Source of the DNA: Candidatus Planktophila limnetica | GTDB taxonomy: Bacteria > Actinomycetota > Actinomycetes > Nanopelagicales > Nanopelagicaceae | Assembly (NCBI RefSeq): GCF_002288365.1 | Contig: NZ_CP016782.1 | Location: forward strand, 186,001 to 250,000 | Length of the DNA stretch: 64,000 nt | Direction of reading: 5' to 3' | Shown here: positions 19,144 through 22,022 of the stretch, one piece after another | Position numbering within the stretch: position 1 is the first letter of the stretch | How the letters are laid out: each line of letters starts with the position of its first letter | The notes under the pieces: model-generated | Database searches by the model: none | What the model was told of the DNA's origin: nothing | Seen by the model: the letters and a program-made list of their open reading frames with translations, nothing else | Made by a program: the position numbers and the translations under genes

Positions 19144-19314
19144 ATGGCAAGTAAGAGCGCGGACGTTCGTCCAAAGATCACCATGGCATGCGTTGATTGC
19201 AAAGAACGTAATTACATTACAAAGAAGAACCGCCGCAACGATCCAGACCGCATGGAACTTAAGAAGTTCTGTCCACGTTGCAAATCTTCAACACTTCACC
19301 GCGAAACTCGTTAA
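19144..19314 (+). CDS. rpmG: 50S ribosomal protein L33
   Basis: Fifty-six residues of the large subunit. Two zinc-ribbon pairs are present, CVDC near residue 16 and CPRC near 43, so this is the zinc-binding (C+) form. The family [23 protein letters not shown] core is intact. GAAGGAG precedes ATG 19144. The TAA stop shares its final A with the ATG of the first hydratase gene. In mycobacteria rpmG precedes the hadABC genes, and the same order is kept here for the first two. Confidence 0.96.
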
Positions 19315-19703
19315 TGCTCAATCCCGATAGCGTCGGGCGCACCTTCGCGGGTGTAGATGTCATCACAGTTACCCAAGAAGAAATTAACGCCTTCGCTGCC
19401 GTTATTGGTGAAAAAAATACATCCGTTGCGCCGCCAACATTTTCAATCAGAATTTCACTTCGGGAGTTTGAAAGTATTTTGACCAAACCTGAGATTGGAT
19501 TGGATTGGACTCGTCTGGTCCATGGCGATCAGAAATTCGAAATATTTCGTCCCATTGTCGCAGGGGATTGTTTGAGCACATCGGCAACTATTGAAAACTA
19601 TAGAGTCGCAGCAGGAAATGAAATTGTGACTGTTCGCTCCGATTTATTCAGCGGCGCTGAAAAAGTTGTTTCATCGTGGTCAACTCTGGTGGTCCGAGCA
19701 TGA
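19314..19703 (+). CDS. MaoC-type dehydratase, FAS1-like N-terminal family (HadA-like)
   Basis: Hot-dog fold protein of 129 residues related to the HadA subunit of (3R)-hydroxyacyl-ACP dehydratases. It starts [11 protein letters not shown] and contains APPTFSIRIS, the LVHGDQKFEIFRPIVAGD segment typical of the non-catalytic or structural partner, and SDLFSGAEKVV. The start is ATG 19314, overlapping the rpmG stop. Its TGA overlaps the ATG of the next gene. With the HadB-like neighbour it likely forms a heterodimer in fatty-acid elongation; substrate length is unknown. Confidence 0.87.
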   Translation: MLNPDSVGRTFAGVDVITVTQEEINAFAAVIGEKNTSVAPPTFSIRISLREFESILTKPEIGLDWTRLVHGDQKFEIFRPIVAGDCLSTSATIENYRVAAGNEIVTVRSDLFSGAEKVVSSWSTLVVRA

Positions 19704-20101
19704 TTGAAGTGGGCGCAACAATTGCATCACACCAATTCGATATTGATAGGGCATTGCTGAAGCAATATGCCGATGCAAGTGGTGACCAAAACCCGATTCA
19801 CCAAGATGAAGCTTTCGCTAAATCTGTTGGTCTTGCCGATGTCATCGCTCATGGAATGTTGACCATGGCACTTGCTGGAAAATACATCAGCGATTGGGCA
19901 GGCGGTCCACAGAATGTAAAAGAGTTTTCTGCGCGATTTATAAAACCTGTGATTGTTCCTGCAGGAAAAAGCGTTGATCTCACTGTCTCTGCAACTGTTA
20001 TAGAAGTTACTAGCGCAGGTGTTCGACTTGAAATCTCAGCAACATCTGCAGGAGTAAAAGTATTAGGAATGGCCAAAGCATTCGTAGAGCAAGGAAATTA
20101 A
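19700..20101 (+). CDS. MaoC-type dehydratase, catalytic subunit (HadB-like)
   Basis: Hot-dog fold hydratase of 133 residues. The hydratase-2 motif is intact in YADASGDQNPIHQDEAFA, with the catalytic Asp and His, and is followed by GLADVIAHGMLTMALAGKY. It would dehydrate 3-hydroxyacyl-ACP or hydrate enoyl-CoA. ATG 19700 overlaps the stop of the HadA-like gene by 4 bases, so coupled expression and a heterodimer are likely. No hadC homologue follows; the next gene is unrelated. In mycobacteria HadAB works in mycolate synthesis, but whether this lineage makes such lipids cannot be told here. Confidence 0.9.
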   Translation: MIEVGATIASHQFDIDRALLKQYADASGDQNPIHQDEAFAKSVGLADVIAHGMLTMALAGKYISDWAGGPQNVKEFSARFIKPVIVPAGKSVDLTVSATVIEVTSAGVRLEISATSAGVKVLGMAKAFVEQGN

Positions 20102-20102
20102 A

Positions 20103-20993
20103 GTGAGTGCGCCAGAGAAATTGCACGAACTTGGTAGAGCCAGACAAGAAGCCCGGGCAGATAAGAATTTTGCACTAGCCGATCAACTTCGAGATCAAAT
20201 TGCGCAAGGCGGATATGAAATTGTTGATGTGGCAGGTGGCTTTGAATTACATGAAAAGTCTTTAGTAATCACGATTGCTGACATTGGAAAACTGAAGAAT
20301 TTACCTAAATCTGCACACCAAATCACGGTGGCAATTATTGTCAATGGATTCCATGAGGATGCAATCAAAAGCATTACTGCCATCAAAGAACATAGTTCTG
20401 CAGAGATTGTTGTCCTGGCAACCCAACCCGCCAAAGATTTAGGTGTTGTTGTTGATTCTCACACACATGTTTTTTACTTAGAAAAAGATCCAGGATGGGG
20501 CGAATGCGCAAATGCACTTCTTAAAATTGCATCCACACCGTATGTGGTCATTATGGATCCATCCACCACATTTACCGGTGATGCAATTACTCCAGTGTTG
20601 GAAGAATTAAATAAAAAAGAGTTTGTAGCAGTTGGGTGGCGCGGGGGATTAGTAAACATTGAAGATCAGTGGCGCAGTGTCGATGATAAAGGCGCAGGAG
20701 AAGTCGATGTTTTATTCTCATATTTCTTTGCACTCGATAAAGATGCCGCCCTTGCAGCCGGTGGTTTTAATGTTCGAGCAATTTATTACCGAAATGCAGA
20801 TATGGAGTTTTCACTTCGATTAAAGCACGCAGCGGGCCGATTATTACAAATGGATTTACCACTGGTGCAAGGACGCCATCATGGTTATTACGACACTGAA
20901 GAGAGTTTCCGTGATGCACAATCAAAGAAGAATTATGATCGCATTCTCGAGCGCTTCCGGGGTAAAGAAGCAATTCTTAGCCCTCGTCGGTAA
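20103..20993 (+). CDS. CysRS-tail-like / glycosyltransferase-like fusion protein
   Basis: I do not know a characterised homologue. Residues about 5-50 look like the C-terminal helical tail of cysteinyl-tRNA synthetase: RQEARADKNFALADQLRDQI followed by GYEIVDVAGGFEL. Residues about 70-296 resemble a GT-A glycosyltransferase: alternating strands and helices (TVAIIVNG, SAEIVVLATQ), a YVVIMDPST segment where a DxD would be expected, AAGGFNVRAIYYRNADMEFSLRLKHAAGRLLQM, and QGRHHGYY. The second Asp of DxD is missing, so catalysis is uncertain. GTG 20103 has an AAGGA Shine-Dalgarno. It lies between the hydratases and murB. Confidence 0.6.
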   Translation: MSAPEKLHELGRARQEARADKNFALADQLRDQIAQGGYEIVDVAGGFELHEKSLVITIADIGKLKNLPKSAHQITVAIIVNGFHEDAIKSITAIKEHSSAEIVVLATQPAKDLGVVVDSHTHVFYLEKDPGWGECANALLKIASTPYVVIMDPSTTFTGDAITPVLEELNKKEFVAVGWRGGLVNIEDQWRSVDDKGAGEVDVLFSYFFALDKDAALAAGGFNVRAIYYRNADMEFSLRLKHAAGRLLQMDLPLVQGRHHGYYDTEESFRDAQSKKNYDRILERFRGKEAILSPRR

Positions 20994-21002: not shown

Positions 21003-22022
21003 ATGGCTGAGTTATCTGATTACACATCATTGCGTGTGGGTGGTCCTGCCAAGAAATTCATAGAAGTTTCTAGTGAAAAAGAAATAATTGAGGCAATAGA
21101 AGGCGCGGCAGATTCTCCTATTTTAATTATGGGCGCTGGCACAAACATGTTGGTTAGCGATGACGGATTTGCAGGAACTGTGATCCGAATTTCAAATAAC
21201 AAAATAGAAGCAGAAGTCGATGCGTGCAGTGGTGCAACCCTGACAATTGGCGCAGGTGAAAACTGGGATGAATTTGTAAAAACAACCATCTCTCGCGGTT
21301 TTGCAGGACTTGAAACTCTCAGTGGAATTCCGGGCACAGTTGGCGCTGCGCCCATTCAAAACATTGGCGCCTACGGTCATGAAGTCAGCGAATTTATTAC
21401 ACGAGTGCGAACCTATGACCGCCAAGTAAAAGCATTAAAGACTTTTACAAACCAAGAGTGCGAATTTTCTTATCGCAACTCTCATTTCAAAGCCCACCCT
21501 GGCAGATATGTTGTGCTTGACGTTGCTTTTCAATTACGAATTGGTGAAGTTACAACGCCAATTACTTACATTGAATTAGCTAGTGCTCTTGGAATATCAG
21601 TGGGTGAAAAGAGTTCGGTGGTTACGTGCCGCGAAAAGGTTCTAGAACTTCGATCACGCAAAGGAATGTTGTTATCAGATAGCGACCACGACTCGTGGTC
21701 TGCAGGTTCTTTTTTCACAAATCCCATTGTGAGCGCAGAAGTTGCCGCGCAACTTCCACTAGATGCACCACGGTGGCCACAAACAGATGGACGCGTAAAA
21801 ACTTCTGCTGCATGGTTAATTGAGCACTCAGGAATAACAAAGGGTCAATCAATTGGCGGTGCGCGAATTTCTACAAAGCACGTATTAGCTTTAACAAATA
21901 GTGGAGGAGCCAAAGCTTCAGAGATTGCAGCACTTGCAAAATTAGCTCAAGAAAAAGTTAAAGCAACATTTAATATTGCCCTGGAACCTGAAGTGAATTT
22001 AGTTGGGCTTAACCTTCTGTAA
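21003..22022 (+). CDS. murB: UDP-N-acetylenolpyruvoylglucosamine reductase
   Basis: FAD enzyme that reduces enolpyruvyl-UDP-GlcNAc to UDP-MurNAc, the second committed step of peptidoglycan synthesis. The 339 residues start [16 protein letters not shown]. They include the FAD-binding [38 protein letters not shown], the YRNSHFK loop, SAGSFFTNP with the catalytic Ser near 236, and a C-terminal AAWLIEHSG / [10 protein letters not shown] block. It is a long type I MurB of normal length. Its last 14 bases overlap the convergent aminotransferase gene. Confidence 0.97.

Follow-up and report, generated by a model that had tools for sequence, protein, structure and literature searches.

The gene described here lies in a window of 64,000 nucleotides (the whole stretch of DNA that was analysed) from a 1.33 Mb genome assembled as a single contig, the near relatives of which are labelled Ca. 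Nanopelagicaceae or Planktophila. The order in the window is rpmG, HadA, HadB, the glycosyltransferase (GT) fusion gene, murB and aspC (on the opposite strand), followed by tRNA-Trp, nusG, rplK and rplA (Table 1). An earlier note on this DNA placed the gene between a MaoC pair and murB, which is correct, both MaoC genes being upstream. The HadA ORF as listed (19278-19703) begins within rpmG, and its likely start is the ATG at 19314.

Table 1. Features of the fusion gene and its neighbours (positions in the window)
Feature	Position	Strand	Basis or remark
rpmG (ribosomal protein L33), first gene of the run	19144..19314	+	read from sequence
HadA-like MaoC dehydratase; ATG overlaps rpmG stop	19314..19703	+	
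HadB-like MaoC dehydratase; stop adjoins GT start; own start proposed at an internal ATG	19700..20101	+	
Fusion gene, 296 aa, GTG start	20103..20993	+	ORF calling, orthologues
N-module, residues 1-52, CysRS-type anticodon-binding, helix-helix-strand-strand	20103..20258	+	Pfam CysS_C 24.9 bits; profile vs PDB CysRS 3e-6; Foldseek 1u0b probability 1.00, 1.3 A
R14, R18, F23, D27 (E. coli CysRS R423, R427, W432, D436) and D42 (D451)	20142..20228	+	conservation in 48 copies; contacts PMC12684709
Variable linker, residues 53-72	20259..20318	+	dN above both domains
GT-A / GT2-like glycosyltransferase domain, residues 73-296	20319..20990	+	AF2 model, Foldseek, PDB profile search
DxD slot D152-P153-S154-T155	20556..20567	+	class alignment; aligned with TagF and K4CP DxD
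G-loop G178-W-R-G181-G182	20634..20648	+	G178, G181 invariant phylum-wide
xED slot R230-N-A-D233-M-E235	20790..20807	+	D233 candidate catalytic base, invariant phylum-wide; K4CP GGED alignment weak
C-His motif R258-H259-H-G-Y-Y-D264	20874..20894	+	H259 candidate metal ligand, invariant phylum-wide
murB, 9 bases downstream of fusion gene	21003..22022	+	

The ORF is a real gene: of 60 close genomes, 36 carry an intact relative, in most cases a true orthologue. It encodes a two-domain protein composed of a module of the cysteinyl-tRNA synthetase (CysRS) type and a GT-A glycosyltransferase. No description of such a fusion was found in the literature searched, most subscription papers lying outside its reach, which agrees with the earlier statement that the combination has no described function. 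The top phmmer match, a lactate dehydrogenase (E 0.016), was dismissed as chance since the profile search misses it. Comparison with PHROGs yielded nothing useful for the fusion protein.

The C-terminal anticodon-binding module of CysRS recurs in residues 4-51 as a genuine copy, as the earlier note had supposed from the likeness of the first 50 or so residues to a CysRS tail. Pfam CysS_C (PF23493) covers residues 4-38 with 24.9 bits against a cut-off of 23, and the tail is the sole match, the Class I synthetase domain being absent from the protein by Pfam. A profile built from 30 family members detects the tails of solved CysRS structures at E-values of 3e-6 to 0.002. The same profile detects CysRS tails in other Actinomycetota genomes, down to approximately 1e-15 per genome, and those that were checked were confirmed as CysRS by full-length comparison. 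Predicted alone, the module forms two helices (5-19 and 23-35) and two strands (38-43 and 46-51). In a Foldseek search with a separate prediction of the N-terminal 58 residues, the best match was 1u0b, the E. coli CysRS:tRNA-Cys complex (probability 1.00, 1.3 A over 48 columns); 3sp1, a Borrelia CysRS, was the only other structure above 0.5. The Foldseek E-value is merely 0.08 because the module is short. A UVR-type hairpin was rejected, as UvrB covers just 31 hairpin residues at a probability below 0.5.

The anticodon contacts of the synthetase are retained in the module. In 1u0b, Arg427 and Asp436 hydrogen-bond G34, Trp432 stacks and Arg423 participates in a water network (PMC12684709). Among 48 non-redundant copies of the module from several classes of the phylum (mean pairwise identity approximately 48%), the equivalents of Arg423 and Asp436 and an aromatic residue at 432 are found in 48/48 and that of Arg427 in 47/48. 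The equivalent of Asp451, which we take to be a further anticodon contact, is likewise present in all 48. The four G34 positions have a mean entropy of 0.27 bits, and the module as a whole has 1.60 (permutation p 0.003). P4, R30 and G37 have no known anticodon role and are equally invariant, so the fold contributes as well and the conservation of the module may in part be structural. Nevertheless, retention of the complete G34-contact set at this level of divergence favors the tRNA-binding reading.

Across 41 genomes surveyed, CysS_C is confined to CysRS-size ORFs and the fusion gene; it is therefore not a general-purpose domain, and the idea of a promiscuous domain was rejected. A look in other classes for an adjoining cysS from which the tail could have been captured found none beside the gene. 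The module shares its fold, sequence and all G34-contact residues with the E. coli domain. It differs from CysRS in forming the N-terminus of a glycosyltransferase, without the HIGH/KMSKS catalytic domain. That the module would bind tRNA is well motivated.

The remainder of the protein has the GT-A fold that was originally proposed for it. The full AF2 model (mean pLDDT 88, pTM 0.80) places this fold in residues 73-296, and its Foldseek matches are GT-A enzymes, with GalNAc-transferases at the top and K4 chondroitin polymerase (K4CP), SpsA and PcManGT also among them. Pfam Glycos_transf_2 (PF00535) gives the window protein 22.5-23.2 bits against a cut-off of 23.3, and 32 of 35 family members reach E<0.01, the best of them 1e-17. 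The polypeptide GalNAc-transferases (GT27) also deviate from DxD (they have DxH), but unlike the fusion protein they are much longer, carry a lectin domain and are retaining; sequence identity is approximately 10%. With GT2 / GT-A enzymes such as K4CP, SpsA, the TagF N-domain and PcManGT, the family shares the G-loop, the xED Asp and the C-His in addition to the fold. The first DxD Asp of these enzymes is D or E in the fusion family. The differences are a third DxD residue that is Ser/Thr (replaced by Ala, Gly or His in part of the members from other classes), an Ala in place of the xED Glu, and the fused anticodon module itself.

The GT-A core consists of DxD, G-loop, xED and C-His, and the xED Asp serves as the base of inverting enzymes (PMC7185993). 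In profile alignments D152 and S154 fall on the two DxD Asp residues of TagF and K4CP, and A232-D233 align with the ED of the K4CP GGED motif, within a weak stretch. The D152-P-S-T and R-N-A-D-M-E motifs are located where the earlier note put them. Its description of the domain as degenerate does not hold. The pattern is [DE]-x-[ST] rather than DxD in the own class and D-x-[SAGH] in other classes, while [DE]-x-[ST]-[ST] and RNADxE are kept almost throughout 91 class members. The Asp of RNAD corresponds to the xED Asp and is invariant in 35/35 members of a phylum-wide alignment that has nine invariant columns (D86, G178, G181, Y207, Y229, R230, D233, H259 and S274). The altered metal site is a signature of the family and not decay. 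With the core motifs kept, and with active GT-A families known in which DxD is altered or lost (GT27 DxH, GT14; PMC7185993), the family looks like an inverting glycosyltransferase with a changed metal site.

The same residues bear on whether the domain might bind a nucleotide or nucleotide sugar without transferring it, the protein then being a regulator linked to tRNA-Cys. No member has the second DxD Asp, the xED Glu is replaced by Ala, and dead GT-A scaffolds such as COSMC are known (PMC7185993). However, COSMC has lost both DxD and xED, whereas the xED Asp, the C-His and the G-loop glycines are invariant here, and active enzymes with aberrant DxD motifs exist. We consider such a pseudo-glycosyltransferase quite unlikely. 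Of the earlier suggestion of a tRNA- or nucleotide-sugar-binding regulator, the tRNA-binding part is strengthened by the kept G34-contact residues, and a purely non-catalytic role has become less likely.

Both domains are under purifying selection. Between close relatives omega (dN/dS) is approximately 0.05 in each, and dN is higher in the linker. On this ground and on motif conservation, the idea of a degenerate or dying glycosyltransferase was rejected. The fusion is present in several classes of Actinomycetota, yet its distribution is patchy: the gene was found in 64 of 394 genomes of the class and is missing from most of those sampled. A phylum search gave 75 raw matches, mostly CysRS tails or unrelated GT2 proteins; in the phylum sample, GT-domain relatives occur in 18 genomes from other classes, with 15 matched from the module onwards. 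The patchiness, and one strongly divergent member (L121) with no module and altered motifs, could be taken to indicate a functionless relic or a mis-annotated fusion. That reading is very improbable, being already contradicted by the constraint data, by retention across the phylum and by survival of the GT where adjoining dehydratases were deleted. L121 has a low-complexity N-terminal insertion and altered RN/RH motifs, and it is possibly decaying.

In a tree of 89 GT domains, rooted by midpoint only, presence of the module changes nine times, at least eight of them on supported branches; a few rows scored as lacking the module are contig ends (e.g. L059). Because the module occurs in both of the clades that separate first under this root, a single old fusion followed by several losses accounts for the pattern most simply. 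The module would thereby have been lost approximately eight times with the transferase retained. Losses that leave the GT intact make tRNA binding dispensable for its role in those lineages.

The neighbourhood has a history of its own. The order HadA-HadB-GT-murB-aspC is nearly universal in the own family. Outside of the class, the families f57, f60 and f87 keep HadAB-GT, with nusG-rplK-rplA next where the contig extends, and murB was not found beside the GT in these three; in f54, f55 and f81 the neighbours differ. The GT became linked to the MaoC pair and the nusG cluster before it was linked to murB, so that the murB linkage proposed at the outset is real but secondary. At L109, L111, L112, L113, L122 and L124 the search detected no murB adjoining the GT, though it did detect aspC or HadAB; there murB may have been relocated or have diverged past the reach of the search. 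At five acI loci (L042, L044, L045, L049 and L053) the GT lies directly behind the end of rpmG with no adjoining MaoC genes. At these loci the start of HadA (MPNPDSLGS) runs into the GT frame, the HadA-HadB pair having apparently been deleted, which suggests that the fatty-acid dehydratase has changed in these lineages. An obligatory partnership with either murB or HadAB was rejected: in other classes and in some families of the own class the gene occurs with no murB found beside it, and several acI loci without either MaoC gene keep the GT, which is therefore independent of both.

These observations also weigh on a rival explanation, in which an ordinary glycosyltransferase acts on an envelope or small-molecule acceptor and the CysRS module, no longer reading tRNA, is an accessory surface for contacts with protein or RNA that might serve, for instance, stability, localisation or dimerisation. 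Repeated loss of the module from an intact GT fits this explanation, as does the presence of murB and HadAB dehydratases among the own-class neighbours. Further support comes from TIGR03965, the model of the mycofactocin glycosyltransferase MftF, which is the nearest NCBIfam model for 19/35 members and matches up to 1.5e-17; the window protein gave no match to it at 0.01. MftF differs from the family in its neighbours and has no anticodon module. Against this explanation, the specific G34-contact residues, and not the hairpin core alone, are invariant across several classes, the murB link is missing in other classes, and the GT persists where HadAB is gone. We regard an ordinary glycosyltransferase as possible, though short of probable.

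The reading we prefer, and to which we give an even chance, is that binding of the tRNA-Cys anticodon arm steers or gates an active, inverting glycosyltransferase. The N-module, as a duplicated CysRS anticodon-binding domain, would still bind the anticodon arm of tRNA-Cys or of another G34 tRNA. The GT-A domain would catalyse inverting transfer with D233 as the base and a non-standard donor/metal site formed by D152, S154 and H259. The bound tRNA would either bring the transferase to its substrate (most simply the tRNA itself) or, in the case of tRNA-Cys, gate it. The analysis shows the domain architecture and the folds, the conservation and constraint, and the distribution of the family, whereas tRNA binding and catalysis are what we infer. 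The location beside rpmG, tRNA and nusG-rplKA genes favors this mechanism, as do the low omega and the invariance of the core residues (xED Asp, C-His, G-loop glycines). The approximately eight module losses, the missing second DxD Asp, the Ala at the xED Glu and the rarity of the gene in the class count against it.

A more specific and tentative version, which we think rather doubtful, is a bacterial tRNA glycosyltransferase in which the CysRS-derived module reads the tRNA-Cys anticodon arm and the sugar is added to that tRNA. Retention of the transferase without the module in some lineages weakens tRNA as the acceptor. To our knowledge, no tRNA glycosylation has been described in these bacteria. 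The sole functional precedent for sugar addition at the anticodon would be the eukaryotic queuosine glycosyltransferases (QTMAN and its galactosyl counterpart), which act on queuosine in tRNA-Asp/Tyr (PMC12518689).

If the preferred reading is correct, the union of an anticodon-reading part of a synthetase with a sugar transferase would link tRNA and glycosylation: the link could be a new modification of tRNA, or tRNA-Cys could control the activity of a glycosyltransferase. The former would represent a tRNA modification so far unseen, in Actinomycetota. The fusion is carried by freshwater acI bacteria with genomes of 1.3 Mb, in which few dispensable genes are left.

The genome also contains two CysRS-type genes, each with a CysS_C tail (L127, 265..1683; L128, 1489..2862). 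One is followed by rlmB, and the other is divergent and adjoins an mshB-like gene. Two CysRS-size ORFs with CysS_C are found in most near relatives as well.
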